Of a DNA stretch of 64,000 nt, positions 4,916-61,974 are shown in pieces. The position numbers were made by a program, and so were the translations under genes. Location: positions 29,250,359 through 29,314,358 of the forward strand of contig CM055092.1 of the NCBI GenBank assembly GCA_029204225.1, in the 5' to 3' direction. The stretch's first letter is position 1, and the number at the start of each line of letters is the position of its first letter. A model generated the notes under the pieces. It worked only from the letters and a program-made list of their open reading frames with translations, had not been told where the DNA came from and did no database searches. The DNA is from Diphasiastrum complanatum (taxonomy: Eukaryota > Streptophyta > Lycopodiopsida > Lycopodiales > Lycopodiaceae).

Positions 4916-5033
<118 letters not shown>

Positions 5034-5164: not shown

Positions 5165-5185
5165 GGGGGGGGGGGGGGGGGGGGG
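5165..5185. repeat. poly-G run, 21 bp
   Basis: An uninterrupted G run lies about 130 bp after the CT tract. The copy 2 counterpart (22547-22569) is 23 bp. Such runs are quadruplex-prone and mutable, and may be misassembled or miscounted. Confidence 0.9.
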
Positions 5186-6884: not shown

Positions 6885-8650
6885 GTGTTATAAGCAAGAC
6901 ATATTATGATTTTCCCACATTGACAGAGGGTGCAGATGATGAACACTTGGAACAAGATGTTCACTTACCACCTAAGTTGAGTGATGACTCAGACGATGAA
7001 CGGTGGGCTGCAAACCTGCTTGTAGCTAGAAGATCAGGAACCTACAATGGTTCTGCACTTAGCCGCAAAGAGAAAGGAAAAGCAAAGACAACACCCAAGC
7101 AATCTCTATGTAGATCAGCAAGAAATTGCAAAGCACCTGTCAGATATGCCCTTGGTAGTTCATCCTCAATGATGGAATTTTTTTTTGTGGATTCGAAGGT
7201 GGACCACAAAGCTATGAAGAAGCTATCGATCGTCCTAACAAGGACAAGTGGATACAAGCAATGGAGGAAGAAATTCACTCCATGGAAATGAACAAAGTCT
7301 AGAAACTTGAATTAGTTCTAGATGGCAGAAAGACTGTGAAATGCAAATGGATCTACAAGTACAAGTATGAAGCTGATGGCAAGGTATCAAGATACAAAGA
7401 ACGACTGGTAGCCAAATGTTTCTCTCGGAAATATCGCATTGACTACACCGAAACCTTTTCTCTAGTTGTCAAACATACCTCTGTACGCTTATTGATCGCA
7501 TATGCAGTAGCATATAACTTGAAAATCAACATTGTGGATGAGAAGACTGCATTCCTACATGGAGAACTCAAAGAGGAACTCTACATGGATCAGCCACCAG
7601 GTTTTACATGCATTAGAGGAGTTCTAAATCCAAGGAAGACCCTTTGTAAAGATTCTTTTTATATTTTTTCACAAATTTTTCCTACACATGGACCAATCAA
7701 AACACTCAAATTTGAAATCTACGTAACGTAACTTTTTGAGTCCACATTTTGATTCCATACTAAAAATGGCATAGCTTTTTAGTGGTAAGTCCAAATTTAG
7801 CATAGTTTGGTGCATTAAAAAGCGCACAACAAGGGCTTTCCAATGATATCTTAGATGATATACTTTGAGCTATGATTAAAAAGTTATGGCAAGTCAAAAG
7901 TATTAGTGCTATAATATTTTAATAATAAAAAAGACATCTTGCACGAATTTTTAAAGGGTCTTTTTGGAACTCAAAACTCCTCTAATGTGAATCATTTTCT
8001 GATTATGCACGTGGGATGCACAAGAGCATCTATGGATTAAAATATTCTGCCAGACAATGGTATAAGAAAAAGGATCATGCTTTAAGATCCTTGGGCTTCC
8101 AACCTCTAATAGCAGACCGTAATGTCTATGTAAAGGTTTTGCATGGAGAGATCATCATAACCGGTGTCTATGTAGATGTCTACGTAGACGACACACTCAT
8201 CCTATCAAGGAGTGATGACCTGAATGCACAAGTGAAGCAGGATATTATCAGACTTGCGTAAAGCACGATGCTACCTAGGATTGGAATCAATTGAGACTTT
8301 GAGAATGGCAGATTATATTTACACCAATCACAGTATACTCAACTTGATCATTGATGTCTTTTAGATGAGTGAATGTAAAGGAGTAAACACTCCGATGATC
8401 ATAGGCACAATATTGACCAATGTAGAAGACGATTCGAAGAATGACGAAGAGAGTAAAGCAATGCTCAACAAGACCTACAGAAGGCTGATAGGTTCTTTAA
8501 TGTATTTGGCAGACAACACCAGGCCGAATATTGCATATGCAGTATTCAAATTGAGTTGTTCAACATCAATCTAGAACCAACACACTGGAAGATTGTCAAA
8601 AGAGTCATAGAACTCTTAATGGGCCCTTTGTCAAGATGTTTTTTTTGACT
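6885..8650 (+). pseudogene. copia-C reverse transcriptase / RNase H remnant (copy 1)
   Basis: Pieces in several frames read CKWIYKYKYEADGKVSRYK, then DEKTAFLHGELKEELYMDQPPGF, then KSIYGLKYSARQWY, then VYVDDTLIL (the YVDD catalytic box of copia RT), and finally RLIGSLMYLADNTRPNIAYAV before RNase H. The order is right for Ty1/copia RT, which copies retrotransposon RNA. Frameshifts, stop codons and the MITE at 7611-7984 break it, and RNase H is missing after about 8575. Confidence 0.85.
7611..7984. mobile_element. MITE inserted in copia-C copy 1
   Basis: Copy 2 of block B reads straight through here (about 48310), so this is an insertion. The left end CATTAGAGGAGTT and right end AACTCCTCTAATG form a terminal inverted repeat, extended imperfectly to about 40 bp through AAGACCC/GGGTCTTTT. 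The empty site TTACATGTGAATC implies a 3 bp ATG duplication (7608-7610 and 7985-7987). It has no coding capacity. The superfamily is uncertain; a 3 bp duplication fits PIF/Harbinger or CACTA types, but the ends are typical of neither. Confidence 0.8.
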
Positions 8651-15535: not shown

Positions 15536-16525
15536 TTGGACCCTTTTTAAACCAATCCTTAGCTGCCACGTGGCAAGTGCAAGTAGAATCAGCACTAAAA
15601 AAATTTGAGACCAATCCGATGCTGCCACATGGCAGACACAGGCAGAATTTGCACTAGATTTTTTTTAAAAAAAATAGGTCACTATTATGCTTTTTAATCT
15701 GTTCATAAATGGGCAGAATAGTCACCAAAAATCCATTACGTGTTTTGTACCTCCCCATCTCCAAGCTTGGCCACATGAGTTGTTTTGTCACACCCATCCT
15801 AGACCTCATCTGGGATGGATTAAGATGAGCATGAGCAAACTCGTTGTTCCAAGATGAGCGTGGAGGATGAGCTGCAACCTCAAGTCTAGTAACTTACCTT
15901 AGAGCATGGTTCTTAGTTCTCATCCAGGATGAGTTGGAGGAGCTCATCACGAAGCACATGTGAGCAAAAAATGAAAATAGTGCATTTCTGGAGGCTCATC
16001 CCGGATGAGCAGGGATCATGTGGCACTCCTTTTTAACATTATACTTTTTAAGAAAAAAGAAGGGTCTTTTCTCAAACACATTAGGGGAAACCTCAACTCA
16101 AAAAGGGTCCTATAAGAAACTTGAACTTAGTGAGAGAATAATCAGAGAGAGAAAGTAAAAACGACAAGATTTGTTGCCGTTTTTCTAGTTTTCGGTGCTG
16201 CTCGCCATCTAACTGGTGTGGTTAACTCATTACAACTCAAACCAAATAAACATGTTGCCTAAGCAGACAGTCGACTAAGCACACACCGCCTAAGCTATCA
16301 GTAGCGGAAAGAGAAGGAGAGGATAATTTTATTCACGCTCTCAAGAAGATATCAGTAGCGGGAGGAGAAGGAGAGGATAATTTTTTGGTGTTCCCTCCAA
16401 AAATATTTGAAAACATTTGAAAGGTAGATTATATAACATGCATATTTAATGATTTACAAGCTTGTTTTGGTTTCGTGTGAATCGTTTTTCTCTTTACATG
16501 ATTTAGTTTATTTGATTTTGGAATA
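15536..16525. other. promoter-side non-coding DNA of the left protease gene
   Basis: Shared with the right arm (about 30000-30858). It contains two near-identical GCCACGTGGC/GCCACATGGC blocks, several CTCATCC(G/T)GGATGAG-like inverted motifs around 15800-16020, and an AGTAGCGG(A/G)A duplication at 16301-16380 seen only here. No ORF of note. Confidence 0.5.
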
Positions 16526-17045
16526 ATGGAAAAGTTTGATCTTCATATTGTGCTCCCACTCGATTGTGCTCCAATTTATAGGAGAAACACCAAAGCTGGT
16601 CAGATTAATGAGACTTGTAAGAAAGAACTTAGAGAATTAAATTGTAGAAATATTGATTTGTGGACAGTTGGATCAATTTATCCCAAAGATCCAAGTACAT
16701 GATGTGATTTAGACTTTCAAACTATTGGCCAGTTATTGAATTTTGTGTGTAATGGACATAGTGGATTGTTGGGATACTGTCAAAAGTTGAGCCAATACGG
16801 GATGTATGAAGCAATGAAGTGAACACAAGTATTGGAGTATTTGTTGAATCAAACAAACAATGAGAAGGCAATACTTCAAGAAACTTTGCAGAAACAAATA
16901 TACGAGAATACGACATTGAGCTCCAATATATCAGAATTGAAAAGTATTATTATTGAGCTTCAAATATCCAATCAACTTATGTTGAGAGATGTTGAGAATT
17001 TTAAAAGAGAAATCTTGAGTGCTATTGCTGAAGGCGAAGTTCTCA
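16526..17045 (+). pseudogene. left-arm N-terminal region: unknown domain plus coiled coil
   Basis: A single frame starts at ATG 16526 (MEKFDLHIVLPLDCAP) and stays open through 17045 except for two TGA codons (about 16700 and 16820). The second half (from about 16832) is a Leu/Ile/Asn-rich heptad-like stretch (LLNQTNNEKAILQETLQ, ISELKSIIIELQ), typical of a coiled coil. It then runs, after a one-base shift, into the Pro-rich ESPSPPPPPKRR segment ahead of the protease. The right arm keeps only the first 16 residues and has a histone gene instead. No family is recognised for the N-terminal part. Confidence 0.55.
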
Positions 17046-18230
17046 GGAGAATCCCCCTCTCCTCCACCTCCGCCTAAAAGAAGATTAGTACTATCAGATG
17101 AGACCGACCAGATGATAGGCCAGACCCAATTGATTCTTGATACATTGAAAGGTCAAGAGGGTCTTCCTGTCACTCCTGGTTTAAATTTTTTACTAGATTA
17201 CTCTTCTGATAGTGACCAATCTTTGGATGTGTCGAGACGCACCACAGAGGATCTGGATAGATATATAACAAAATCAATTGCTCTTTTTCTTGAAGCCCAT
17301 CTCAGTTAATAGGAACTGTATATAAAAATTTAGCTGTTCAATATCCGGCGATCCCATGTTGACATTTTTTTATTCTGAGCGATATATAATTTTTGACGAG
17401 TACATAGCTAAAAAAATAGATAAATTAGGTGGTCACTTTGTATTCAATATATATTTGGCCTCCTATATGAATTATTTCAATCTTGTTATCTGTAAGGAGT
17501 TATTGAATAAGTCTTCGGACCTCACAAATCCAGTTGTCGAAGCTGGACTCAATTATTGAGTTCAATTGTACAAAAGAGACAGTATTCATGGTGTTTTTGT
17601 GCTTACTCAATTTTTTTGTCACCTGCTTAAGGACGAGCAGTCAGCTGCATCATGTTTACGATATATGACATGCGACTCCGAAAATTTTGTTGTACCATAC
17701 TGTCAAAAGTATGTCTTGTTTAATTTGAGTTGTATGTATTGTTTTCTTATATGCTTTATTTGTATTTCTTTCATTTGCATATCATTGACTATTTGGTTGA
17801 TTGCAATCATCATTGGTTTGTACATATTATATCAATAAGAGTGGATGGAGCCGGTTTGTGTAATCCAAAGGTTCTGAGAATGAACTCTTTGAGATCAACA
17901 CACCTCAATGTCGACATTGAGATGTACAAAAGCATGATCATTTATTTTCCAACGAAGGCCCTGTGTGTAGCAAGGGCACATAGAGATAATAGACGCACAT
18001 GTAACCAATTTTTCAGTTAGTCTTTTCGTGATGCAAATTGCCTTATAAAAAAAATGAAAAACTAACATTCTGTATTTTGATTCTCAGTCCTCTCAGCAAG
18101 TTGACTCATTCAGCTGTGGCAGGTATGCCATTAAAAATATAAAATGCTTTATGGAATGGTTCATCAGCCAAGGTGAAAATGTCGATATACATCAGGAGCA
18201 TCTACCAGTGGATTGCGAGGGTATAAATCA
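17046..18230 (+). pseudogene. ULP1/SENP-like (C48) cysteine protease, left arm
   Basis: Order: Pro-rich SPSPPPPPKRRLVLSDE, an acidic stretch, the FDEYIAKKIDKLGGHF block, an intron from 17709, HHW (from 17807, the catalytic His region), NSLRS where the family usually has Asp, an intron ending TTGATTCTCAG with an ACTAAC branch site, then QQVDSFSCG with the catalytic Cys codon at 18115-18117. C48 proteases release SUMO from proteins in the nucleus. The first intron acceptor has mutated from AG to AA (17805-17806), and stops interrupt the first exon, so this copy is dead. The homologous region ends at 18196. Confidence 0.75.
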
Positions 18231-18739
18231 CCTCTTACCCATAGGTCAATATGTTTTTTGCCTTCTAATCAGCTTTCTAGGGTTACGGTTCCGTAAAACT
18301 TCTAATCACTAATTCGCATTAGGATCTTGCTAATGTCTCTTTCCCCATTGAATTCGGCTTACAATTAGTAAAAATCTTACATGGGCTTGAAACCGATTTA
18401 TTGCCTATGATGTGCTTGTGGGATGCAAGTTATACACACCGATTTGTTTGATAAGCGGTGGTATTTTTGCCGACCGTCGGGTCTAGGTATTTTGTTAGAC
18501 AATATCGATGGCAGATGTGACTAGTGTGACGCTTAACCAAGGCAGTGCATTTCAACGGCGGATGGTGGACGGCCCACTCTGGTGTTTCACAGAGGTCGGG
18601 TTCAGTTGATATGTTTCATAATTGACAAAACCTAAAAAACCGTTTCACAACTTGACGATTCCGCATGGTAGTTTAACTAACAAACCTAACTCAGCAAACC
18701 GTAAAACACATTCTAAATCTGTATGACTCTTGGCTACAA

Positions 18740-19075
18740 TTTTTAACTAGGGAAACAACCTAGAACTAGATTTCCAAGAGGACAAACCAAAATGACAAAG
18801 TCCATTTTGTCACTGATACACAGTGACTTATGTGGTTCTATGAGCATACCTTCATTAGGACAAGCTCTATATTTTATTACATTCATTGATGACTACTCCC
18901 GATTTACCAGAGTTATGTTCATAAAGAACAAGTCAGAAGCATGTAGTTGCTTCAAGGATTTCAAGCAATACGATGAGAATCAGACTAGTCAGAGAATCAA
19001 GGCCCTATGGTCTGATTCATGGAGAGAGTACTTATCAAATGAAATGCATATACACATGTTGAATCAAGACTTCTG
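18740..19075 (+). pseudogene. copia-B integrase remnant, copy 2
   Basis: Frame 18792-19076 carries LIHSDLCGSM and FITFIDDYSRF as in copy 1, but the GAG-pre-integrase part is deleted. It is truncated at the inverted gene-Y scrap. Confidence 0.8.
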
Positions 19076-19311
19076 AAAATGAATTGAACTCCCTTTGAAA
19101 CTTTGAACTCTAAAATTCTTCCTTTCCAAAAGTTTTTGTAATCCATATTTGATTTCTTTCTTTTGCGAAATGCACCTTTTGATGAGGGATGCATCACAAC
19201 CCATTGAACTTTCTGTATGTGCATGGTATCCATAACCCCTTTAGAATCCCTTTCATTACAAATAGTGATCGAATTGATCTCACTACGCGGTCTTCGATTG
19301 CAAGCGGCCAT
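19040..19311 (-). pseudogene. gene-Y first-exon remnant (block A copy 2)
   Basis: Minus-strand ATG at 19311 opens MAACNRRPRSEIN. It keeps HPSSKG and the basic KRKKSN stretch, with a frameshift near KGVMDT relative to copy 1. Same inverted relation to the copia scrap. Confidence 0.6.
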
Positions 19312-19761
19312 TGCATAACAGTGCAAGATACAAAACGATTGATAATGAACATCCAAGATACAAAATGATTGATAACTTCAGTTAGTTGAATCATCTATGC
19401 AAGTTAGTTTAACTTCAGTTAGTTAAACTCGGGCAGTCTTTTCCCGACTGGCAACAATATATTATCCAATCACATATCTAGACTCTGCCCGGCGGGAGTT
19501 TTGAACTCGCTAAAAATATGCCCGGGAAATTGTAAAAAAAATTTGTCCGGCAAACACCGTTACCGTCCTGCACACATGTAAAAATATTATTGGGAAATGT
19601 GGACGTCGAATAGTTGAAAAGTCAAAAAAAGTATCTTTACAAAGGGCCCTTATAGCTCTTGGACCTCCCCTAATGATGGAAAGTCCATGTTAAATTGTTA
19701 CGATTTTTTAACTCGGCTTTCTAACCCTAGACCCAAAACTCTATATCCTAACAACTAAACC

Positions 19762-19771
19762 CTATATATAG
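19762..19771 (+). promoter_or_regulatory. TATA-like box in block A copy 2
   Basis: CTATATATAG, the counterpart of 2436-2445, with the same flanks. No gene is assigned. Confidence 0.3.
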
Positions 19772-21034
19772 TCAATGCACATGTTCAAGAGGGACAAAGC
19801 TTCTCACTTTTGAAAGCATAGCTTGTAGTGAAGACAATCGTGAGGAGTATTGTAAACATCAAAACTAATCTAGCTAACTACTACGAATAGTCAAAACCAT
19901 AATACCATGTCAGTTTTACCAAGTTTCAAGCTTGGTACATTCATGATATGATATGTTCGTAAGTTTTGTTTTTGTCTTGTTCCACTTAAAATTACAATAT
20001 CATGTGTCCATGGCATTTAATTTGCAATGATTTTTCCTTCTATTTTTACATATATACATGGATTCATTCTCCACTCTGACTATGCATATCTTCTTAGGCT
20101 ATCTCAGCCTCTCAGGTATCACATGGGATAGAACCTTGGTAGGCCTGAATCCACAGGTGCCCACAATTTATTTTTTGCGGGCACCAGCACACCAACTTGT
20201 CTTGGCCTCCCAACCACCACGTGTCCAGCGTGCCGGCACCTAGTTTTCCTCAAGCCCAGTAGTTGGCCGTACCTGTTCCGGGCTACCGGGCACCCACATA
20301 TCTCGAGCATCGGGGCCCACCTGTCCCAGAGACTCTCGCCCATCTCTCCCAGACACTCACACATGCAAGCTACAGGGGACATTTCTAGTTATATGGCTCA
20401 CTGGGAAAATCCCCCCTTTGATTATGGGATTTTCCATTGATTGCCACATATGGCGCTCCGAAAATGAGGGGCAGGGAGCAGGAGCCAGGGGCCGGCTCCT
20501 AGAGCATCAGGAAACCGGCTGGGAGGAAGGGGTGTGGATGTACACTTCGTACGTACCCTTGTGCAGGATTTAGCCTAAGGCGAATCATATGTATCCATAA
20601 TCCCAAATAATGATGTTTATTTTATTGCCAACTATAGGTAATTCAACTAGCATCATTATGTACCATATGGACACTTTACATCATGTAGTTTTGCATCAAT
20701 ATGTACAATATGCCCACTTTACATCACGTAGTTAAGGCAATCCAAGATGTTGCCTAGGGCTCTAGACATGTAATCTCCCAAGAGTTGGGATTCAAGTCTT
20801 TGCCCAAATGGACATAGTTCATATTCTCATCCAACTTTACTCATGTTGAGGGCACATATTGATCTTTCATGAAATTCTCCTTTAGCTTTTGCTCCAATCA
20901 AATATGTGCTAATATCAACTTTGACTCTATTATCCTACCATCTTCTCTGTATTTATTTGATGCTTAAGTATTGTTTTGCTCATGGGACAAATTTCATTTT
21001 GCCAAAAGAATTGGAGCACGTTTTGAGCCTCCAA

Positions 21035-21220
21035 ATGGCAAAGCTAAGTGCTATGTTTGCTTTGGAGCCAGTATGTACATTCGTCGTATTCATAACAGAT
21101 ATGGCAAGAGTATGGGAGAGGGTTATGGCTAGTCTTTGCTCTCATCTTTCTAGGTGGCTTATCCTACAAAAGGTATCCTTACATCTTGGTTTTGTTGATG
21201 GTGAAATGATTGAGAGCTAA
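21035..21220 (+). CDS. small hypothetical ORF, block A copy 2
   Basis: Counterpart of 3629-3838. Here the frame is open further upstream, to about 20906. A few substitutions separate the copies. Same caveat: it may be a dead exon. Confidence 0.25.
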   Translation: MAKLSAMFALEPVCTFVVFITDMARVWERVMASLCSHLSRWLILQKVSLHLGFVDGEMIES

Positions 21221-22307
21221 GCTTGATTTTAAGCCTATGTTATTATATTGTCAACATTTGTGTGACTCATAGAAATAGAATACGTGAATATAAGTAAGGT
21301 GAGAAAGTCTTTCCATCATGAGATTCATTGAACAACATGTAAATAATAATGTCATCCAATCCATGCGATATCATTTTTCTAAGTTGTTGTTGAACTTAGT
21401 CTAGCTAAGGTACTAGTTAGTCTCTCTGTTGTATTGGACCCTTGTGCACATGTTAGAAGTCTTTAGATCCACACAACGGTGGATTTGCATAACCTTTTTA
21501 CAATGGATGGTAAACGTCAAGGTCTCAAATCTCATGATTGGCTCAAGATGGTTCAATTTATTTATCCATTTTTTCAATTCGTGGGTGCTAGTCAAACGAT
21601 CAATCAATGTCAGGTATATACATTTACTTGGTGTACATTTCTATTTTATATTAACTGATTGGAAATTTAACTACACGTAAAATGAAGTGAATATATTGCA
21701 AATGGTTGACAATTTGTGAGTTGGATCTTCACAAGAGACATGAGGATATGGTGGAGATTGTGTGCATGTTTGAGAGATATTTTTTGACTTCCATCATGGA
21801 CTTGCAAGTGCATTTACTAGTGTGCATTTCAAGTACTTATTTAAAAAATCGTATCTCATAAATTATGTGGAATCACATCAAATCCTTTCACATATGTATT
21901 CTTCATATATATATTCACTGATTAAAAATTTTAGATTTCATTTTGAGCAACTTATATATAAGATATGATGTGTCAAACATGTGGGAGTACAGATGAGACT
22001 TCAATATTTTCATATATGGGACTACATTATTGTGAATTTTACATTCAAATTTTTTGCGTGTCTGCTCTTAAAAATCCTATGTGATTATAGAAACATGCCT
22101 AAAGACACTGGTAATCTGCTATAATAGTAGAGAGATTGCATCTGAAGCTTCAAGCATCTAAAATAGTTAAAAAAAACTACTTATAGAAAGCCAAAAAAAC
22201 AACAGTTATGGGCTTCCATGTCCACCCCTATTAGTGTTTGACTGTGCTCCCTCCAATCTCAGATCTTTCTGCTTGTGAGAGAAACTGTGCAACTACCTCC
22301 ATGGCCA

Positions 22308-22417
<110 letters not shown>

Positions 22418-23606
22418 AGCAGAAGGGGTTTTCTGCTCGGGCCCCAAGGTTTTTGTTTATGGAGAAAGAGGGGGGGGGCGTAGGTGTAAAGTTTTAGTCA
22501 ACATTGAGTTAAGTTGAGTTATAGGTTTAGATGCCCATGTTAGGTTGGGGGGGGGGGGGGGGGGGGGGGTTTCTTGGGCGGGGTGGGGAATTGGAAGTTT
22601 TATTGACTATAATTTTTTCGTTTTTTTGGAGTTTCCATGGGCATTTTTTAGTAGTTATAGAGTAAATAACATTAAGTGCAGTTAAATTCATTATGGAATC
22701 GTAATGGCCAAAAAAGTCTGTTTGAATTAGATTTCGATGCTTACATTGGTTTTTTTCGCATATTTGTTGCTTAAGCTTCCATTTTGCAAAATCATTGGTA
22801 TAAAGTCTATAAGCACGATGTTGTTCGTTGAAAACTGCATTTTTAATGGACATTGCTCGACTAGAAAGTTATACTCATATTGAATTAACCGAATGTTAAA
22901 ATTTTCAAAAATCTTCGGTTTTTTTATTTGCAAAAAAGATGGAATGAAATTCCAGTTAGGGGTATCAAATGAACATTTGGTCGGCATCACTCAATAGTGA
23001 TAACCCCCCAAAAATATTTAACACATGGTTGAAATTTTTGGACCACGGTGTGTTGGAATTTCATCTTAGCAACAAATAGAAAAAACCGAATGCAAAATCT
23101 ATTCAATAGTTAACCATTATGATTTACAACTTGGGCTAATAACCGAAAATTTTGTGATGATTAAAAGCCTCGAAGTTGTTGATGACTGGATAAACCGTTG
23201 GGCGAGCTTGTTAGCTTACACAACATCCCAGAATAAAATAAGCGAATTTCGTCGGTTTTTTGCTTTGGATAAGCCTCCTTGTGGGGGAGGATGCAACCCA
23301 TAAAACTATGATTGCACTGAATTCCCGGACGAATTCCGTAAAACTTTTTCACAATTGACGAATTATTTCGCTTTAATTAACTACTGTGGGCAACTGAGAA
23401 TAGGAGTTCTTGTATTTTTTGACCAAGGTGTCGGAATCGGACATGGCTAAAAACGGCCCAGAAGCCTAAGTTGGAAAAACTGAAATGGAACACAATAGTG
23501 GTTTCCTTGATGTGCTTGAAGTATGGGCATTCCAACAAAGTATTTTTTAAGAGCAGAAAAAAACCGTGTCATTCTTACCCATTTTATTAATCTGTCACTC
23601 AAGGCA

Positions 23607-23868: not shown

Positions 23869-24083
23869 CCTGATGTATATCGACATTTTCACCTTGGCTG
23901 ATGAACCATTCCATAAAGCATTTTACATTTTTAATGGCATACCAACCACAGCTGAATGAGTCAACTTGTTGAGAGGACTGAGAATCAAAATACGGAATGT
24001 TAGTTTGCATCACGAAAAGACTAACTGAAAAATTGGTTACTTGTGCGTCTATTATCTCTATGTGCCTTGCTACACACAGCGCC

Positions 24084-24779
24084 TGTTGATTTCACACGTG
24101 TGGATTGTCCACTACATGTACTTGTTATCTCCTAAGGTGTGTAGATGCACCAAGATCAAGACTAGATTGAGATTCAAGATCAATCTTAGATCCTATGGCA
24201 AAAACACACTACTACATGCATTCAATCGCTTCCAACTCTCACTCACACGTGTGGGAAGTATTCAAAAATTATTCTAAGTAAAAACAAGCTGCTCTCTCTC
24301 GGGTAGAGAGATAAAGCTAGAAATCCAATAACACTCAAAATCCACATAATCATCAAATCAATTAGATCCAAAATGAGGAGTACAATAATACTAGTAGATC
24401 CACGAGCTACCACTATGCTTAACTATGATTGGACCACACTTTGTCACCTCTTAATCCTATTGGACCATTGATCCCTGCACCTCTTAATTCTATTGGACTA
24501 TATTCAAGGACACCTCAAATTCCTGTTGGACCTCACATGGTTCCACGTCTAAATCCTATTGGACCTCTTAGAATTCATCAAACAAAGGCATTACACTTGT
24601 CTACACTCTAATTGGCACGAGTTTAGCCTCTTACTCTATTTTGGCTCAATAGTGGCATTACAAGTGGAAATGCCATCTATGCCAAATTTGTTCCTATCAA
24701 CATCCTACACCTAGATGCTTGATGTAAAAAACATAAGACCCCTATATCTAACATAGATAATCTTTTTCAATTCTTCACA
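24084..24779 (+). mobile_element. solo LTR, family S, second copy (696 bp)
   Basis: Begins TGTTGATTTCACACG and ends CAATTCTTCACA. It inserted in the protease gene. Flanks GCGCC (24079-24083) and AGGCC (24780-24784) each differ by one base from the empty site GGGCC, readable in the left arm at 17957-17961, so they are a decayed 5 bp duplication. It is about 110 bp shorter than the 14615 copy. Confidence 0.85.
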
Positions 24780-24863
24780 AGGCCTTCGTTGGAAAATAAA
24801 TGATCATGCTTTTGTACATCTCAATGTCAACATTGAGGTGTGTTGATCTCAAAGAGTTCATTT

Positions 24864-25695
24864 TGTGCAAAAAGTACAAAAGGGACCAAGAGTGGATCCT
24901 AATCTGATCCTCAAGAGGGATTGGTTGTCAGATTACTTGATCTATCAATCTACTTTAGATTAAGATCAATCTAGATCAATTCTAGACACAAAATTCTAAC
25001 AAGAACAATCATTAATTGAAGGTAAGTGTACTTTATGGTTTCACACGTGTGAAACATTGTCTGCGTACGAACTCCAACCTGAAAATCAAGTACACATTGA
25101 TAGAACCTCAAAACAATCAAAACAAATGTAGACAAATGGAGAAAATCACTCAAAATTGCTTCCAAAACCAAGATTGGTGTCTCACAATGATTACGGCCAA
25201 ATGTGGCTCTATATATACAATAAGTGAGATCTCGTGGTACCGATCATCCCTCTGATCCCACATGTGTGAAGGTGCTTTGTCATATGATGATTCATCATGC
25301 AAAACTGACACTTGGACAAAACCTTCTATTTTGAGTACTTTTGGTCCATTTTTCTTCTATATGGAGATCTTCTTGAAAAGCTTCTAGAATTCCAAATCTG
25401 CCTACTTCAGCTTGTTCCACATGTGTGAGCTGTCCTCTACACATGGGATGTGACACCTAACTAAAGGATGTGGCTCATGCAATCAATAGACTGATGCCAT
25501 GTGTCATATGTATAGAAAACTAGTTTTTGGCCATTTTAGCCACTAGAACTTGAATTAAATCATATGTACAGCATATATGATTATGGTACATGACAAGTAC
25601 ACTAGTTTCACACGTAGGAACAAGCTCCACACACGTGTGTTTATCTATGTACAAGATTTTTGACCTCTACCAAGCTTATTTTTGCATTTTTCACA
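24864..25695 (-). repeat. LARD-like element, 3' LTR
   Basis: 832 bp; plus-strand ends TGTGCAAAAAG and TTTTTCACA. It contains the perfect palindrome GTTTCACACGTGTGAAAC (25038-25055). Confidence 0.92.
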
Positions 25696-27283
25696 CTCCT
25701 CAAAAATCTAGCCTGGTAAATCTAGCTTGATGGAAAACATGATGATCTTGAACTTGACTCCATGGGCTGAATTGGTCTTTGCTAGTTCAAAAGGTGTGAA
25801 GGTCAGCCAATGAGCTTGATGTTGATCTGAAATCACCATATCCATGATAGTGTGACATCTTTGATGAGCTTGAGAGCTTTGCACCATCCTAGCACCTCCA
25901 AAATTGATTCCTTCCAATTTTCATGTAGATGCTTGACCTTGAGGCTTGCTCCTTCACATGAGATATGCTCCTGATGGATTTTGTTTCAAACACATGAAAA
26001 TCAAACTTAATCACTTATTTTGGACTCACTCTTGACCCAAATAATCTCACACTTGAGATTTAGAATGAATTTGATCTGATTTGACAACAAACTATACCAC
26101 CAATTTTTCACAAAGCTTAAAAAATTAGACAACTAGAGATTCACAAAAGATCTCAACCATGCATGAATACTCAAATATGGACGACTCCTCATTCTAGACA
26201 TCCAATGGGATCTCAAATTGACCCTCACACTCTCACGAAGAAAGTTAAATAGAACTAATTTGAGTTTCATACATACTATGTCAATTTTTGCTCAATAAAT
26301 TGATTCAATTACCCCTATTGGATTCCACCAATTACTCTACCTCTTAAGACTTGGAATGAAATTCAAAATCAAAAGTTGTGATTTTTCTCACTAAGATATT
26401 TTGCTTCAAAGATCTAATGCCACTTAGAAAGATTTGATCACCTAGGAGAAGACAAACTCTCCACCAATAACAACACAAAATGAGCTTCTAGATCTTGCCC
26501 TCTACAAAGGAAGGAACTCTTAGAAAATTGGATCTGTCTCTACACATTTGCCATAGACACCTTAATGACTCTTTTCAAACCTTACAATCACTCAAAAAAA
26601 TTGAGTAGGGTTGAACAATGTGACTTGGATCTCAATCTCTTTTCTAGAACTCTCAATTCAAGCCAATCTATGTCAAATTCTACAAAAGATTTGCATACAT
26701 GCTCTATATGCACTAGAAACTCTCAAAGGTTTCACTTGGAGGACAGATCCAAGGATGTTTTCTAGCAAATTGATGCTTCTAAACTTGACCCTATCACTCT
26801 TGAACAAATCTAGAGTGATGGTACAATGGACTTTATCCTCTAACCTTGCATATCACTCCTTAATCTATTAATTTTGGCAAAATCTCTCTCAACTTCAACA
26901 TGCACTCAAAAAATCAGAGAAAATCATTTAATGCTCCTAATTCAAGCTTCAATTTAAATTTTTTGGCTGATCTAATCCGAGAACTAATCAAGGAATTAGA
27001 TTCTCTATAGAAAATGCTTGATTTTGCACTAAAAATCTCTCAAATTGGGTGTGTGAGTCAAATTGTACAAATTTTTGAATTTTCTCAGCAAAACCTGGAG
27101 CTATACGGCCTCACACGTGTGAAAAGGGTTCCTACAGCCCACAACAAGATCTGGACCAAAAATTTTGAGGATAGCTATCAAATCCAACTCGCTACACAAA
27201 ATTTGACTAGTTTCCAAAAAACTGCCAATTTTGGCTTTGATTTGGATTAACCCTATCAATTTCAACAAAAACTCTTGTGCTTG
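25696..27283 (-). other. LARD-like element, internal non-coding region
   Basis: No ORF above about 86 residues and no gag or pol motif in any frame. It is rich in CTCAA and AAATTTG words. A CTCACACGTGTGAAAAG motif lies at about 27109-27125. Confidence 0.8.
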
Positions 27284-27295
27284 GCTCTGATACCA
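27284..27295 (-). promoter_or_regulatory. primer binding site of the LARD-like element
   Basis: The minus strand reads TGGTATCAGAGC, continuing CAAGC, complementary to the 3' end of plant initiator tRNA-Met and directly abutting the 5' LTR. It primes minus-strand cDNA synthesis. Confidence 0.9.
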
Positions 27296-28128
27296 TGTGG
27301 AAAAAGTACAAAAAGGACCAAGAGTGGATCCCAATCTGATCCTCAAGAGGGATTGGTTGTCAGATTACTTGATCTATCAATCTACTTTAGATTAAGATCA
27401 ATCTAGATCAATTCTAGACACAAAATTCTAACAAGAACAATCATTAATTGAAGGTAAGTGTACTTTATGGTTTCACACGTGTGAAACACTGTCTAAGTAC
27501 GGACTCCAACCTAAAAATCAAGTACACATTGATAGAACCTCAAAACAATCAAAACAAATGTAGACAAATGGAGAGAATCACTCAAAATTGCTTCCAAAAC
27601 CAAGATTGGTGTCTCACAATGATTATGGCCAAATGTGGCTCTATATATACAATAAGTGGGAGCTCGTGGTACTGATCGTCCCTTTGATCCCACATGTGTG
27701 AAGGTGCTTTGTCATATGATGATTCATCATGCAAAACTGACACTTGGACAAAACCTTCTATTTTGAGCACTTTTGGTCCATTTTCCTTCTATATGACGAT
27801 CTTCTTGGAAATCTTCTAGAAGTCAAAATTTGCCTACTTCAACTTATTCCACACGTGTGAGATGTCCTCTACACATGGGATATGACACCTAACCAAAGGA
27901 TGTGGCTCGTGCAATCAATAGATTGATGCCATGTGTCATATGTTTAGAAAACTAGTTTTTGGCCATTTTAGCCACTAGAACTTGAATTAAATCATATGTA
28001 CAACATATATGATTATGGTACATGACAAGTACACTAGTTTCACACGTAGGAACAGGCTCCACACACGTGTGTTTATCTATATACAAGATTTTTTACCTCT
28101 ACCAAGCTTATTTTTGCATTTTTTCACA
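27296..28128 (-). repeat. LARD-like element, 5' LTR
   Basis: 833 bp, highly similar to the 3' LTR, with the same GTTTCACACGTGTGAAAC palindrome at 27470-27487. The promoter should lie here. Close similarity of the two LTRs implies a fairly recent insertion. Confidence 0.92.
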
Positions 28129-29097
28129 CATTCTCAGAACCTTTGGATTACACAAACCGGCTTCATCCACTCTTAGTGATATAATATGTACAGACCAGTG
28201 ATGACTGCAATCAACCAAATAGTCAATGATATGCAAATGAAAAAAATACAAATAAAGCATATAAGAAAACAATACATACAACTCAAATTAAATAATACAT
28301 ACTTTTGACAGTATGGTACAACAAAAATTTCGGAGTCGCATGGCATATATCGTAAACATGATGCAGCTGAGTGCTCGTCCTTAAGCAGGTGACAAAAAAA
28401 TTGAGTAAGCACAAAAACACCAGGAACACTGTTGCTTTTGTACAACTGAACCCAATAATTGAGTCCAGCTTCGACAATTGGGTCTGTGAGGTCCGAAGAC
28501 TTATTCAATAACTCCTTACAGATAACAAGATTAAAATAATTCATATAGGAGGCCGAATATATATTGAATACAAAGTGACCACCTAATTTATCTATTTTTT
28601 TAGCTATGTACTCATCAAAAATTATATATCGCTCAGAATAAAAAAATGTCAGCATGGGATCGACCGGATATTGAACAACTTAATTTCTATATACAGTTCC
28701 TATTGACTGAGATGGGCTTTCAGGAAAAAGAGCAATTGATTTTGTTATATATCTATTCAGAGCCTTTGTGGTGTGTCTCGGCACATCCAAAGATTGGTCA
28801 CTATCAGAAGAGTAATCTAGTAAAAAATTTAAACCAGGAGTGACAGGAAGACCCTCTTGACCTTTCAGTGTATCAAGAATCAATTGGGTCTGGCCTATCA
28901 TATGTTCGGTCTCATCTGATAGTACTAATCTTCTTTTAGGCGGAGGTGGAGGAGAGGGGGATTCTTCAGGTTCCACCCTAGACGGCCCAGCTTGATCATC
29001 AGTTGGCTGGTCTTCAACTGGCTTGATTTGGCTTTTTTTAGCCCTGGCTCCTGACCTCACTGGCCTTGACTGCTTTCTTTTCCCTTGTTAAGGCGGT

Positions 29098-29530
29098 CTA
29101 AGCTGGTCGGGGAGGTGGAGGTGCCTTGAATACCTGCTCGTACTGATTCCTCAGCCTAAACACAAGCTCCATATCCTTGGGCATGATAGTCACCCGCTTT
29201 GCGTGTACAACAACAAGCACAGTATCCTTAAAAAAACGTAATATGATAATCTTCGTAGGCTGTATGCAATGCTTCAATTACAGTCACGCACCATCTGACA
29301 TCCACGGACAAAGACCTTGTCACATCCCTCACTATTCGGTTGAAGTTGGATTTCGGTATCAGAAGGTTGATGGACTTCTGTAACCTCCTAATATCTCTGA
29401 GCCATGGGCAGGGTATTCTGCCAGGCCCCCTAGCACGAGGTCGAGAAGCTGCAGGATGCAAGGATGATGTGGCTTGACTAGCTGGCGGGACAGTAGACTT
29501 TGGACGCGCGGTGTGTTTGGTCCTTGCCAT
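29098..29530 (-). pseudogene. divergent histone H3-like gene inside the protease transposon
   Basis: ATG at 29530 (GCAATGGCA context) opens MARTKHTARPKST, close to the H3 tail MARTKQTARKST. The tail then becomes a Ser/Pro/Arg-rich region. A full histone fold follows: LRDIRRLQKS, LLIPKSNF, RIVRDV, VIEALHTAYEDY and, after one extra base in a seven-A run (29230-29236), DTVLVVVHAKRVTIMPKDMEL. From LRDIRR to the last helix I count about 40 identities in 84 gapless positions against canonical H3 from memory. There is no loop-1 insertion as in most CENH3, although Trp in VRWC and LLIP are CENH3-like. The one-base frameshift should abolish the last third. TAG at 29100-29098. The protease Pro-rich frame begins about 15-20 codons later. 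Confidence 0.85.
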
Positions 29531-29999: not shown

Positions 30000-30858
30000 T
30001 TCAAAATCAAACAAACTAAATCATGTAACGAGAAAAACGATTCACACGAAACCAAAACAAGCTTGTAAATCATTAAACATGCTTACTGATAGCTTAGGCG
30101 GCGTGTGCTTAGTCGACTGTGTGCTTAGGCAGCGTGTTTATTTGGTTTGAGTTGTAATGAGTTTAACCACACCAGTTGGACGGCGGGCAGCACCGGAAAC
30201 TAGAAAAACGACAACAAATCTTGTCGTTTTTACTTTCTCTCTCTAATTATTCTCTCACTAAGTTCGAGTTTCTTATAGGGCCCTTTTTGAGTTGAGGTTT
30301 CCCCTAATGTGTTTGAGAGAAGACCCTTCTTTTTTCTTAAAAAATATAATGTTAAAAAGGGGTGCCACGTGATCCCTGCTCATCCGGGATGAGCCTCCAG
30401 AAATGAACTATTTTCATTTTTTGCTCACATGTGCTTCGTGACGAGCTCCTCCAACTCATCTTGGATGAGAACTAAGAACCATGCTCTGAGGTAAGTTACT
30501 AGACTTGAGGTTGCAGCTCATCCTCCACGCTCACCTTGGAACAACGAGTTTGCTCATGCTCATCCTGATCCATCCCAGATGAGGTCTAGGATGGGTGTGA
30601 CAAAACAACTCATGTGGCCAAGCTTGGAGATGGGGAGGTACAAAACACGTAATGGATTTTTGGTGACTATTCTGTCCATTTCTGAACAGATTAAAAAGCA
30701 GAATAGTCACCTGTTTTTTTAAAAAAAAAATTAGTGCAGATTCTGCCTGCGTCTGCCACGTGGCAGCATCGGATTGGTCTCAAATTCTTTTAGTGCTGAT
30801 GGATCCATGTGGCAGCTAAGGATTGGTTTAAAAAGGGTCCAAAAATCCATTACGTAAT
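30000..30858. other. non-coding DNA shared with the left arm
   Basis: Counterpart of 15536-16525. It includes a perfect 13 bp hairpin GGTGACTATTCTG / CAGAATAGTCACC (30662-30674, 30699-30711), GCCACGTGGCAG, and the palindrome TCCATTACGTAATGGA (30846-30861) next to the foldback element. Confidence 0.6.
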
Positions 30859-31264: not shown

Positions 31265-31675
31265 ATGGCGCCCGCCGCAGATACAGACCAGATCTTAGAG
31301 CACACAGATGATGCGCCCGGGTGGAGCGTTCAACTGTTGGTGGAGAAAGGAGTGAAAGAGGTCCCATCCAAATACGTTCGCTACAAGTCTTTGCACAGTG
31401 ATCTTCCTGTCATTGATGATTTCAGTGTGGAGCTTCCCGTTATTGATTATGGGAAAATGCATGGAGCGAACGGGGAAGAGGAAACTGCCAATTTCTTCAA
31501 GGCAGTCCACGAGTGGGGTTTCTTGCAGGTTTGTTTTTCTGGCTGGATCTGATTTTGCAGCTCAAGTGTGGTTCTGACGTTCCAACTAGCTCCTCTTGTG
31601 TTTTGCAGCATTTGATTTTGCCTTTAGCTTCTTTCTTCCACATTTAATCCTTATAATATGTTCCTGTAGTAGACA

Positions 31676-31710
<35 letters not shown>

Positions 31711-33204
31711 AAGGATGCTGTAACAGCAGCAGCATTCTCATGACTGTGGGAGACTGCTTTCGGATGTTGCAAATCAGGACTGAATTGACCTGGTTAACTT
31801 GCTACTTTGAATAATTGTTGTTTCCGGATCGTTCCCCTCATGATGAGTGACGGTGTTGATTGTAGATTGTAAATCACGGCTTAACGGAAGGCCTAATCGA
31901 TCGAACGTTAGACGTGGCCCGGAGCTTTTTCCTCCTGCCCGTCAGCGAGAAACAGAAGTACTTCGCTCCTGATCCTGACGTTCCTGTGGAAGGATACGCT
32001 AGAATAAACAACGTGGATGGCTTAATGGACTGGGGAGACACGATCATGATGAATGGCGACGTTCCGGTTCTCAATAAACACAAAACGGACTTCTCAGATT
32101 GGCACCATCTACCTGAGAAGTTCAGGTAATCAGAACTTCTTTGATTTTTTGCCGCTTTCCCAAGCCTTGGCTTTACTAGATCCTGTTATTTGCTTTGCAG
32201 ATTTTTATTTTAAGTCAACCCGATTATATAACTCTACTGCTTTGCCATATCAGGGACACGTTGGTGACATATGCCAGAGAAACACATACTCTGGGCCTTA
32301 AAATGATGAAGCAGCTGGGGGACGCTATCGGTATGGCAGACGTCGAGGAGACTGGTGGACCTCAGGGATTGCAGTTAGCCTTTAACTTCTACCCGCCGTG
32401 TCCGCAGCCGGATCTGGTGTTGGGTATAAGCGCACATACGGATCCGCAAACATTCTCATTCCTCATTCAGGATCAGCCAGGTTTGCACGTTCTAAATAAA
32501 GGACGCTGGGTGCTTGTTCGGCCTATTCACGATGCTCTGATTGTTAATATCGGAGATCAGCTGGAGGTGGATGTCTTTTTTTATCCATATGCTTAGATGT
32601 TTCTTATTCCATTTTATCAAAACCTGCCTCAGTTTTTACAGAAGCATAATTCAAATTGCTGTTGGTTTTAACGATGCAATATGAGGTGCTTTCTCTTCGT
32701 ATTGACTGATCAGGGTGCAGCAGGACCCCACTCTCATCTATCATGTGATGGCTATTATCTATAATCATGATCAATTAGAAACTATCAAGGCTTATCGATT
32801 GGTGGATGAGCGTGGGCCTGGACTGCGCCATCAGTAAACATGAGCAATACGCTCCTCGGACCAAACATATGTTGAAATAGGTACTCTTGTTGTTGCAATG
32901 CATCCTGCAGATACTTTCCAACGGCAAGTACAAAAGTATTATGCATCGTGTCAGGGTCAGCTCCGAGTATAAACGATTTATTGTGGGATCATTTCTAAGA
33001 CCAGCTTTAGATGCTGTCATTGGTCCAGATCCGAGGTTGATTGACGTCGAGCATCCCCCTCTGTACAAAGCAATCAAGTACGCAGATTACATGGGCGACG
33101 GTATCGATGATGGATTTCTAGAGAAGCGAATTGTCAACAAGGGTACACACGCACACTTCCCAGTACTCCTACATGAAATAAATCTCATGCAGAATCAGAA
33201 CTGA
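31265..33204 (+). CDS. 2-oxoglutarate/Fe(II)-dependent dioxygenase, intact, four exons
   Basis: Exons 31265-31528, 31866-32125, 32254-32566 and 32911-33204 join in frame (1131 nt, 376 residues), all with GT-AG borders. An N-terminal DIOX_N region (LPVIDYGKM ... WGFLQ/IVNHGL) precedes the 2OG-FeII domain with NFYPPCPQPDLVLGISAHTD. Iron ligands are H236, D238 and H291 (SIMHRV); R301 should bind 2-oxoglutarate. The usual R-x-S is R-F-I here. Length and layout fit the plant DOXC class (flavonoid, hormone and alkaloid oxygenases), a soluble cytosolic enzyme hydroxylating a small molecule; the substrate cannot be told. Intron 1 holds (TC)n at 31681-31709. A truncated inverted copy lies at 14012-14253. 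The only gene here that looks functional. Confidence 0.9.
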
Positions 33205-37093: not shown

Positions 37094-40000
37094 CTCCCTT
37101 TTCAACTAGTTTTAGCATAGACTTTGATAATACTCCAAGTGAAGTCCTATGCTTCATGAACAAGTCTTTTCTAAATGGTTTGGTGAAGATATCAGCTACA
37201 CATTCCCTTGAAGACACATGTTGAAGCTCCACCTCCTTTGCAATGACTCGCTCCCTCACAAAATGATATTGTATCACAATATGCTTGCTCCTAGCATGAA
37301 AGATAGGATTGGATGCCATTCTTTGGGCTAATGGATTGTCACAAAAGATGATTGGGCTCTCTCAAAAATCCAGCAAGTGAAGATCCTTGATCATCTTTTT
37401 GATCCATATCATCTCCTTTGTGCAATGTGTAAGAGCTTTGTACTCGGCCTCACTAGATGATAATGAGATAGTGGCTTGTTTCTTTAACATCCATGATATA
37501 GCTCCATCACCTATGAAAATACAATAAGCACTAATGGATTTCCTATCCATTACATCTTTAGCATAGTCCGAATATGAAAATCCAAAAAGATTAGATGATG
37601 ATCCCTCATACAATATGCCAAAATCTTGAGTTCCAATAATGTACCTCAAAACTCGCTTTCCTAACTTCCAATGCTCCTCACTAGGATCTTGGATGAATTG
37701 ACTCAATCTTCCAGCACAATAGCTTAGATCTGACCTAATAATGATTAGATATATGAGTGAACCAGCTAGCTTTCTATAGAGAGTAATGTCCTCGAAGGAT
37801 CTTTCATTACCTCTTATAGTTAGCTTTAAATGAGACTCCATAGGTGTATCAATAGCTTTTGCATCTACCATATGAAATATTTTTAGAATAAAATTAGCAT
37901 ACTTCTTTTGACAAATGAAAGTAGATTGAGAAGATCTAATGACTTCTATTCCTAAAATGTAATGCAAATTACCAAGATCATGCACCTCAAACTCCTTCTT
38001 AAGAGCATTCTTGATATCCTCCACATCTTCATTGTCTCCACCACTCAAGATGATATCATCCACATAGATTAGCAAGATGGTAACATCATTTCCAGCAAAC
38101 CAATAATAAAGTGAATGATCATACTCACTCATAACAAAGCCTTGAGAGCGTAAAAAAGTGTTAAGCTTAGCATACCAACTCCTTGGTGCTTGCTTAAGGC
38201 CATACAAACTCTTTTGTAGAAGACACACATGATTTGGCTTTGTTGATGAAATGTAGCTCTCGGGTTGCTCCATGTATACTTCCTCCTCAAAATCACCATT
38301 CAAGAATGCATTTGAAATGTCCATTTGCCATAGATCCCATCCATAAAGTGTAGCAAGTGAAATGATGACTCGAATGCTTACCATCTTTGCCACGGGTGCA
38401 AAGGTCTCATCATAGTCAATTCCTTGTTGTTGAGCATATCCTTTTGCCACTAACCTTGCCTTGTACTTGTTGATAGATCCATCTTGGTTTGTCTTCACCT
38501 TGAAGATCCATTTGCATCCAATAGCTTTCTTGTCCTTAGGCAACTCCACCAATCTCCATGTTCCATTCTTCATAAGAGCTTGATACTCGAGGTCCATTGC
38601 TTGGATCCACTCCTCTTCTTTCCTTGCTTGATCTACACTTGTAGGCTCATACAAAGAGGTTAGGAGAGCAACGTAATCTCCAAAAACTACTTGCTTACCC
38701 TTTTTATCATATGTGAGCCTTGAAGGTACTTGTCTTTCTCTTGATGTTCTCCTTGGTTTTTGACTTGATGAAGGTCCATCATCACCACCATCCAAAGTAG
38801 GATCCTTCTCATCAACATCAAGAATGTTAGATCCATATACTTTACCATCAATCATGCTTGAAGACACCTCTGGAATGTTTCCCTCATAAAAAATGACCTC
38901 TCTACCAACAATCACTTTGTTAGTAGAAGGAATGTAAACCTTGTAGGCTTTACTCACCTCACTATATCCAACAAAAATACCTCTTCTTGAAGATGGATCC
39001 TCCTTGTTCCTATCATCAAGAGTAATGTTGACATAGCAAAAAGGCCTTGAACCTGTTAGATATGTACTCACCACCATTGTCACCTCTCAAGCACTTGACC
39101 TTTGTGGAAAATTGGTTCTCCCTTGCATTCTTGAACTTGACAAAGACATCATACAATTCATCCTTGCTCTTTAGTAGATAGATCCAACAAAATCTACTAA
39201 AATCATCAATGAATGTTACATACATCTTAACTCCACTATTGCTAATTATAGTAAATTCATGAATATCCGAATGTACAAGATGAAAAGGCTTTGTAGATCT
39301 AGAAATAGATCTAGTATAAGGTAGTCTGTGTGACTTAGACAAAGCACAAGACTCAAAAACATGCTTGTCATTACTTAAAGAACTTGGAAGACCAATCACA
39401 ACCTTCTTCCTTGCCATTACCTCCAATGACTGGAAGTTGAGGTGTCCCATCCTTTTGTGCCAAACCTCTTGAATAGAAATTTGCCTTCTTGCAACACATC
39501 CAACTTGGTTAGCAATAACACAAGCATCAAGTTTGAACAACTTCCCTTGCCTTTTACCTTTTCCAATCAAGACATCTTTCCTTTTGATCAAACAAGCATC
39601 TCCATCAAACTCCACCTTGAGGCCCTTACTTAGCATTTGACTCACACTAAGCAAATTCTTGGTAATAGATGGAATAAACAAGACATCCTCCAAATGAACA
39701 TTACTATTTGTAGAGAGAGAAATAGGAATTGTGCCAATCCCTTTGATTGCACACTCACTATCATTGGCCGTGTAGATCACCCTCTTGTCATCTACATATA
39801 CCAACAAAGAAGTGAAGTACTCTTTGTGAAAGGTCATGTGTGAACTTGCTCCACTATCAATCCACCAAGGATCTAGATCTCCATCATTAGCAAGCATACA
39901 TGAAGACATCACAAAAGCATCATCGTTTGCAGCTTGCACATCCAAACCATCCTCATCAAGAGTAAGATTACCTTGCTTGTCTCCTTGATCTCTCTTCTTC

Positions 40001-40770
40001 TTGTAGCACTCACTTGCAAAGTGTCCTTTGATGCCACAATAGAAGCACTTGAGCTTTGATCTATTCTTATTTTTGCCACTTGAAGAAGCATCCACTTGAT
40101 CTTGCCCTTTAGACCACTTGCTTTTGGTTTTGCCCTTGAATTTGCCCTTTGTGAACATAGCATCCTCTTGAAGTGTTGATGTAGATCCACCTCTTGCTTG
40201 AAGCCTATATTCCTCATTGATCAAGACCTCTTAAAGATCCATCAAACTTGGCAAAGTCTTTTGAATAGCAATACTTTGAACAATGTTAGCATGAGCATCC
40301 AACAAGCCATTAAGAATCACTTGAATAAGCTCTCCTTCCTTAATGCTTTCATCTATGCAAGCTAACTCATCATTCAATGCTTTCATTCTCAAAACAAAAG
40401 TACTTGGACTTTCTTCATTATTTTGAAAACAAGAAAAGATTTGCCCTCTTAGAGTCAACACTCTAGAAGTAGACTTATATTTATTAAGCTTCTTCAATGA
40501 ATTCCAAGCTTCCAAAGATGATGTGCACTTACCAACTTCCTTGAGAAGTTCATTGGTAACATTCATCTTTATCATGTGTAGAGCCTTCTTGGCCCTCTTG
40601 TCATACCTCAATTGATCTTGTTGTGTTGCTGGTCTCTCCTCCAAACCTACAACAATATCCAAAACATCATTCATCTCAAGAAGTGACTCCATCCTCACTT
40701 TCCATAATGAATAGTTACTTGAGGTAAGCCTATCATTGGCTTCCAACATGACTCCAATTGAGGTTGCCAT
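37089..40770 (-). pseudogene. copia-A2 gag-pol, nearly complete
   Basis: Start ATG 40770. Domains: gag (40770-40231, SSNYSLWKVRMESLL); zinc knuckle CFYCGIKGHFASEC; protease WWIDSGASSHM; pre-integrase EVWHKRMGHLN; integrase core up to RGDNGGEY; RT FLNGDFEEEVYMEQP, YGLKQAPRSWY, LLIYVDDIIL; RNase H with SLSSSEAEYKAL; C-terminal SKHIVIQYHFVRERV. Two in-frame stops interrupt otherwise collinear frames: TAA near 40230 (after SLMDL) and TGA near 37362 (after LLDF). A deletion near 39070 removes the integrase catalytic Glu region and breaks the frame. The stop codon overlaps the 3' LTR. Without that deletion the copy would be almost full length. Confidence 0.93.
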
Positions 40771-52479: not shown

Positions 52480-52580
52480 GCTTATCTTGTTGTGCAAGCC
52501 AATTGAAAAATTATTAGGCATTGACTACCATATACCAACCACAGCTAACAGAATCAACCTACTGGGAGGATTGTAGTATT
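52480..52580 (-). pseudogene. ULP1/SENP-like protease, Cys-motif remnant
   Basis: The minus strand at 52557-52533 reads VDSVSCGWY, aligning with VDSFSCGWY of the right-arm protease; a stop follows a few residues later. The gene converges on gene Y, whose last exon ends about 380 bp away. Upstream exons were not found. Confidence 0.6.
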
Positions 52581-61969: not shown

Positions 61970-61974
61970 ATGAG

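Follow-up and report, generated by a model that had tools for sequence, protein, structure and literature searches.

Few proteins are as conserved as histone H3. Why, then, does a clubmoss genome hold a strongly diverged H3 gene beside a protease-like sequence, and what might such a gene do? The question arises from a 64,000-nucleotide stretch of Diphasiastrum complanatum DNA (the window), for which a sequence-only reading had proposed a captured H3 gene that evolved inside a mobile element.

A divergent histone H3 domain

The domain occupies 29101..29530 on the reverse strand: a tail, MARTKHTARPKST, followed by an H3 fold that runs through the block HAKRVTIMPKD, with the reading frame broken at 29230-29236. 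A TATA-like stretch is found near 29770. The assignment to an H3-type protein, read from its start at 29530 down to 29101, was borne out by both domain and structure searches. With the frame bridged by one X, the Pfam Histone model matches at E 1.6e-20 (74 bits, against a cut-off of 26.4), and each half of the window copy matches this model alone (E 4.3e-9 and 1.7e-6). In the PDB, the 60 matches listed of 180 are all H3 types (best E 4.7e-23). Identity to Arabidopsis H3.1 is 42% over 137 columns.

This copy is disabled. The homopolymer length change that had been held solely responsible is present at 29230-29236, but comparison with a sibling, L043, reveals further damage: 8 bases are deleted after ..PRPA, and stop codons follow. 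The 144-residue protein proposed earlier is therefore a truncation product.

Relatives throughout the genome

Searching the same genome with the Histone model gave 6,325 first-look candidates and at least 153 matches, dispersed over the chromosomes; the matches listed comprise 13 canonical H3 genes and others scoring 82-110 bits. When the window H3 itself was the query, there were 6,642 candidates, and each of the 150 that were scored is a match (E <= 3.7e-36). Of the 150 copies listed, 94, counting the window's own, have 69% identity or more to the window H3, and 16 of those 94 extend from residue 1 to 142 or 143 with no internal stop. These genome listings, like that for the transposase-like gene described below, are about 150 scored sequences from 6,325, 6,642, and 11,481 first-look candidates, respectively, and are samples rather than a census. 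One copy lies 18 kb left of the window start, and is 98% alike over residues 1-101. Pfam Histone scores are 93 bits in L040 and 98.6 in L037, representatives of two further subfamilies. Two more divergent H3 pieces were seen in L018 and at L035:7387-7914; the latter begins mid-fold.

Among annotated proteins, P0003 (O6H91_14G014700, Diphasiastrum complanatum, C14) is a close paralogue, 49% identical to the window H3 over 140 columns. A profile of the two retrieved no other close member among the best 120 listed of 2,928, in a search of a kind that would miss relatives sharing few words and much longer proteins. A sunflower protein (P0002) owes its high score to two H3 domains in tandem. Foldseek with the P0003 model listed 50 hits, all of them nucleosome or H3 structures (TM about 0.4-0.57); the predicted structure is of moderate confidence (pLDDT 67) and adds little.

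One gene: H3, linker, domain X, and a protease-like box

The sequence-only reading had placed the H3 gene next to a ULP1-like protease in one arm of a palindrome. The two do adjoin, in the right arm only, but they are not separate: in sibling copies they form one gene. Behind the H3 domain, on the same strand, lie a basic, S/P-rich linker (ORFB, 28680..29087), out of frame with H3 here and in frame in siblings; domain X (28281..28679), which has no Pfam match and ends in ..PYCQK before an intron-like stretch; a first protease-like exon piece (28129..28173), interrupted by an LTR element; another such piece (24778..24864), flanked by two later insertions; and the final exon-like pieces of the H3 gene (23870..24091), with a C48 (Ulp1/SENP)-like Cys box, DSFSCGWYAIKN.

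Translation of 17 window-type and related copies reveals the uninterrupted arrangement. In L054 (C13:31266243), which lies in an open frame of 527 codons, MARTKQT, the H3 fold, the basic linker, and domain X follow one another with no stop between them; L057, L058, and L059 are likewise stop-free; L043 and L044 have one or two stops; and the others are frameshifted or shorter. H3, linker, and domain X also share one stop-free frame in two copies of the SLS subfamily (L037 and L039), and the L040 frame continues from H3 into domain X. Because the sibling frame runs on into the ORFs that match window 29087-28281, H3 and the protease-like part constitute one gene. Siblings without in-frame stops, where intact copies had been anticipated, were found by the genome search (L054, L057, L058, L059, L037, and L039).

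Is the last part a SUMO protease, as had been supposed? The Cys box that ends the exon-like pieces reads DSFSCGWYAIKN in the window, HSCGWFSIRN in L073, and DSVSCGWYTICN in L074. The residues corresponding to the active-site Gln and Cys (Q72 and C79, numbered by the first row) are invariant in all four aligned sequences, and the C48-like boxes keep the Gln-Cys spacing of the Ulp1/SENP active site. This much of the supposition stands; against it, the Pfam Peptidase_C48 matches to short exon pieces (E 0.0008 to 0.008, 16.5-19.7 bits) fall under the cut-off of 20.7, and inspection by eye of the frames of the window-type, SLS, L073, and L074 copies, whose exon borders are uncertain, located no catalytic His. 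A PDB search with a four-sequence C48-like profile returned SENP8 only (E 0.19 and 0.26). Given the weak C48 match, the single PDB relative, and the missing His, the module may be inactive or misnamed. A protein search with linker plus domain X gave 353 candidates, none at E <= 0.001.

The predicted gene is therefore an H3 domain, basic linker, and domain X, with an Ulp1/SENP-like box after intron-like gaps. The fusion appears dispensable in some relatives, since copies of the PPP subfamily keep H3 with no protease-like part detected in the 10 kb read in each of two copies.

A multi-gene DNA transposon

Five copies share the exact end base of ..GAACTCCTCTAATG, and the L034 element opens with the reverse complement of this same sequence. 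A genome search for CATTAGAGGAGTTCTCAATATCAAAAAGACCC, allowing up to two mismatches, found 990 + 1,034 = 2,024 sites; the control found 0 + 0. From this list two whole elements were chosen by repeat spacing alone, blind to H3: L065 (9,451 bp) and L066 (9,371 bp), with terminal inverted repeats identical at 35/35 positions. Each contains a coiled-coil gene; a transposase-like gene; an opposite SLS gene; H3 with the C48-like box; and two opposite 'BAH' genes. In both of the two, the H3 is decayed but in place between the terminal repeats.

Coiled coil, SLS, BAH, and transposase-like are names given by eye, and a Pfam scan of the corresponding pieces yielded no match above cut-offs. The transposase-like gene is conserved, but had no Pfam or PDB match by which a DDE transposase could be recognised (the PDB profile search returned 0 matches); viral contigs searched with the transposase-like part gave six pattern matches, none of them confirmed.

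The L040 copy and the window-type copy on C6 (L061 + L043 + L062) both have the order coiled coil, transposase-like gene, opposite SLS gene, H3, which is common to three subfamilies: SLS, L040, and window-type. At the other end, the C13 copy (L063 + L054 + L064) and L057 + L073 present the C48-like box, then the opposite BAH genes. In the PPP subfamily (L015), MARTKQTARD comes first, next an acidic and proline-rich stretch of about 270 residues, and last the H3 fold; BAH genes adjoin. This second architecture, with a long acidic and polyproline stretch ahead of the fold, was noted in L015, L020, L022, L025, and L038.

Mutator-like elements generate a 9-bp target-site duplication. Here, no duplication of at least 4 bp was seen in any of five repeat pairs; L065 shares three bases (TCA). 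Two repeat pairs were fetched whole and three more read at their ends only, one of which is an inverted duplication and was omitted from the duplication count. The repeat ends L071 and L072 (C1:21359432 and 21391595), which lie 32 kb apart, have flanks of 30 bases that are reverse complements of each other and mark an inverted duplication like that in the window. Membership in the Mutator superfamily was rejected, with no Mutator match in Pfam among the pieces scanned, and so was membership in hAT, with no hAT match in those pieces and no duplication.

Together, these features place the H3 gene in what is, by its predicted genes and ends, a large multi-gene DNA transposon of Diphasiastrum complanatum, about 9.4 kb long with 35-bp terminal inverted repeats. 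Might the copies instead be host genes, a dispersed family of plant H3 variants that merely lie near repeats? One of them, P0003, is annotated as a gene. A host family is nevertheless scarcely credible: the sequences occupy well over a hundred dispersed places, the H3 lies inside repeat-bounded elements, and the gene order is fixed. A single domesticated copy may exist.

Element remains in the window

Each arm of the palindrome in the window holds a decayed member of this family. The right-arm element begins at 30309, with a diverged left terminal repeat (30271..30309, reverse strand) about 780 bases upstream of the H3 start. It retains its H3 gene, which is split by an LTR retrotransposon (24864..28139; LTRs 24864-25705 and 27296-28139, about 95% alike) that is absent from the left arm. 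Its right end was not found. The window H3 copy is a dead element member without a transposase-like gene.

The left-arm element spans 16079 to 19675: a diverged left terminal repeat (16079..16113, forward); a coiled-coil gene joined to the linker (16652..17020, forward); linker, domain X, and C48-like box (17049..18195, forward); a convergent 'BAH' gene, also named by eye and with no Pfam match (19044..19296, reverse); and the right terminal repeat (19641..19675, forward). Transposase-like gene, SLS, and H3 are missing, and a piece of the coiled-coil gene lies in their interval; we read the loss as a probable internal deletion.

The two arms have a flanking gene region in common as well. The palindrome is therefore a segmental inverted duplication and does not reflect the shape of the element itself. 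The shared gene, with introns, runs in the right arm from 31266-33130 (forward) and is truncated in the left; we take it to belong to the 2-oxoglutarate/Fe(II) oxygenase family. Enzymes of this type are known in Lycopodium alkaloid synthesis. A sequence of about 4.8 kb is repeated directly at 1416-6205 and 18740-23606, with 94% identity, and one copy fills the centre of the inverted duplication.

Elsewhere in the window, a 377-base non-autonomous element with SLS-type terminal repeats sits inside a copia ORF (7611..7987, forward); its filled site, compared with an uninterrupted paralogue near 48.3 kb, has no target-site duplication. Remains of an element of the same kind as the H3 carriers occupy 49420-52573: pieces of BAH and BAH2, together with a C48 box that is degraded and contains stops. 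Gypsy-type retrotransposon frames (57466-63750, reverse) and copia-type frames (37362-40794) were named by eye.

Linkage and constraint

A list of thirteen transposase/H3 pairs was picked by eye, and carries no statistic. For a blind sample, roughly every seventh of the 150 transposase-like genes listed (of 11,481 candidates) was taken, 20 in all and without regard to H3, and the slot inspected for each was the 901 bases at the predicted H3 offset. An H3 occupied this slot beside 10 of the 20. The chance expectation is about 0.07 of 20, even were all 6,325 Histone candidates H3. The remaining 10 slots held no H3; there it may be shifted, truncated, or absent.

The same sample provides a measure of selection. 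Copies reached through the transposase-like gene, plus an L037 reference, were compared in pairs of at least 60 codons, one of 45 possible pairs falling below this length and L085 being too short for the set. Across the 44 pairs, which are not independent, codons with a single change numbered 427 non-synonymous and 577 synonymous: a non-synonymous fraction of 0.425. When these changes are redistributed among sites matched for base and CpG context, the null fraction is 0.72, and hence the omega-like ratio is 0.29. By the same measure, three sets picked by protein similarity (without L056, L065, L024, and L014) give 0.42, 0.27, and 0.53. Between subfamilies (window-type, L057, L058, L059, L040, and SLS representatives), third codon positions differ by 0.51-0.68, near saturation, and second positions by 0.14-0.32. 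For comparisons of the window-type copies with L057, L058, L059, L040, and SLS, the ranges are 0.51-0.66 and 0.14-0.31.

The H3 fold is, by these codon comparisons, under constraint through purifying selection. The proposal of the sequence-only reading that a histone gene evolved within a mobile element holds up: there are copies genome-wide, H3 stands between terminal repeats, it is linked to the transposase-like gene, and it is under purifying selection. Neither of the two outcomes that it had named as contrary, a sequence with no H3 match or neutral debris at a single locus, was what we found.

These figures also bear on whether H3 is mere passenger, captured by chance through transduplication and amplified without a role, as with RIP-inactivated hAT copies in fungi. 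Many copies are broken, including the window's, L065, and L066, and the fungal case provides a precedent (PMC6710886). We nonetheless judge such neutral cargo very improbable, given the omega-like ratio of 0.29 in copies sampled via the transposase-like gene, the contrast between codon positions, with H3 retained across subfamilies despite near-saturated third positions, and the in-frame fusion to further coding sequence.

The tail and the descent of the fold

Of 21 tails, 20 keep K4 and one has lost it, whereas the ARKS motif around K9 is found in none. Seventeen of these tails are copies L043-L059; SLS copies were left out of the tally, and their start, MDRRKQTRRDFF, also lacks ARKS. For the window subfamily, one reading of the change is that a proline was inserted ahead of K9. 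The canonical H3 of the same genome is similar in its histone fold, HAKRVTIMPKD block, and ARTKQTAR start; by comparison, the transposon folds compared share 40-55% identity with it, ARKS is lost, and most subfamilies read have a C-terminal fusion.

Such a tail might work outside nucleosomes altogether, its free MARTKQTAR end and fold soaking up or misleading host readers, chaperones, or methyltransferases. An H3K4-type N-terminus is kept though the region behind it has diverged, and in L015 about 270 residues separate it from the fold. Mimicry of this sort seems unlikely to us all the same: the fold is constrained and most of the HAKRVTIMPKD block is kept, neither of which a pure tail mimic needs.

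Could the gene instead derive from, or act as, a centromeric histone? Plant CENH3 resembles it in being a diverged H3, in the MARTKH start seen in the window copy, and in the LLIP and RW signatures. Unlike CENH3, the window H3 scores nearer to H3.1 and occurs in high copy number. Loop 1, which is longer in CENH3, gives a mixed picture: there is no insertion in the window copy, and one of four residues in P0003. In a tree of 30 folds, from which P0050 was left out because its start motif was not found, 12 transposon-type H3s stand apart from H3 plus CENH3 (support 77/80); the core group, without PPP and L018, has support 91/96. The H3/CENH3 tree that had been suggested earlier thus separates the transposon-type sequences and does not nest them in CENH3, with weak support. 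Membership in CENH3 was rejected on scores of 95.9 bits to H3.1 versus 77.4 (Arabidopsis CENH3) and 62.8 (a second CENH3); the tree, weakly supported, agrees. The topology is consistent with, and falls short of proving, one old capture; long branches may distort it.

The same comparisons weigh on a targeting role, in which the H3 domain would tether the transposition complex to particular nucleosomes, such as those of recently replicated or centromeric chromatin, and so choose insertion sites while leaving silencing unaffected. The H3 gene does travel with the transposase-like gene in conserved order; the fold is constrained and the tail variable; and some members are CENH3-like in places (RW, FEDSM, and RVTLM in P0003). 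The preference of the window copy for H3.1 over Arabidopsis CENH3 and the failure of the tree to nest these H3s in CENH3 count against targeting, and we consider it improbable.

Precedents

The nearest precedent is found in fungi, where hAT transposons carry histone H3: H3L in Pyrenophora tritici-repentis (PMC3538342), for which a figure legend mentions ESTs, and an element of Pseudocercospora fijiensis with an 8-bp target-site duplication, whose copies are RIP-inactivated (PMC6710886). Like the clubmoss element, these are amplified DNA transposons with terminal repeats and an H3-like ORF (PMC3538342, PMC6710886). The fungal elements have a hAT transposase, and the portions of the papers available report no fusion of H3 to another domain. 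In the clubmoss element, by contrast, no transposase was matched in Pfam and no duplication was seen; its H3 gene continues through linker and domain X to the C48-like box, its subfamilies are several and deeply diverged, and there is constraint.

A second comparison is with the KIU and VANDAL Mutator-like elements, plant multi-gene DNA transposons with a captured Ulp1-like domain; the word 'histone' occurs 0 times in the review (PMC13317346). The clubmoss element differs in lacking a Mutator match in Pfam and a 9-bp duplication. KIU and VANC-type proteins counter silencing, and provide a functional parallel (PMC13317346). Among the open-licence PMC articles listed in literature searches, the fungal hAT cases and Ulp1-carrying MULEs were the only relevant precedents; no plant element with H3, and no H3-SENP-like fusion, was reported there.

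A histone against silencing?

We regard as quite likely, overall, that this is one gene of a large DNA transposon and encodes an H3 domain fused to linker, domain X, and a Ulp1/SENP-like box. The portion of this account that can be read from the DNA comprises the H3 homology, the H3-to-X frame in siblings, gene order, terminal repeats, dispersal, and constraint on the fold; the fusion suggests that the element meddles with host chromatin. Several observations stand against the account: both full-length elements (L065 and L066) have a decayed H3, 10 of 20 sampled slots held none, the C48 match is weak, the PPP copies have H3 but no protease-like part that was detected, and one tail of 21 has lost K4.

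How might the fusion work? By analogy, and tentatively, it may be placed in chromatin, escape K9 silencing, act on SUMO, and keep the element's chromatin open; this specific mechanism could easily prove wrong. The H3 part would pair with host H4, or ride on histone chaperones, and thereby be built into or docked on chromatin. The fusion would bring with it a tail that has K4 but lacks ARKS around K9, and a SUMO-binding or deSUMOylating module would come along with the H3 part. The outcome would be open chromatin over the element, as VANC proteins achieve for VANDAL elements.

A bolder proposal, which we hold to be rather doubtful, is that the element represents a new superfamily of multi-gene plant DNA transposons, using its own H3 and SENP-like module as a selfish histone against silencing. 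Its traits would be 35-bp repeats beginning CATTAG, no target-site duplication, and a transposase without a Pfam match; its product would be a nucleosome component unable to carry K9 methylation in the usual setting, and able to strip or bind SUMO.

If true, a transposon H3 that has diverged strongly yet stays under purifying selection, is joined to more coding sequence with a SENP-like box at its end, and lacks the K9 motif would offer a natural experiment on the reading of histones by the silencing machinery. Whether a selfish element can write its own chromatin would become a testable question, with a clonable protein in hand, and the element may define a new transposon superfamily in lycophytes.
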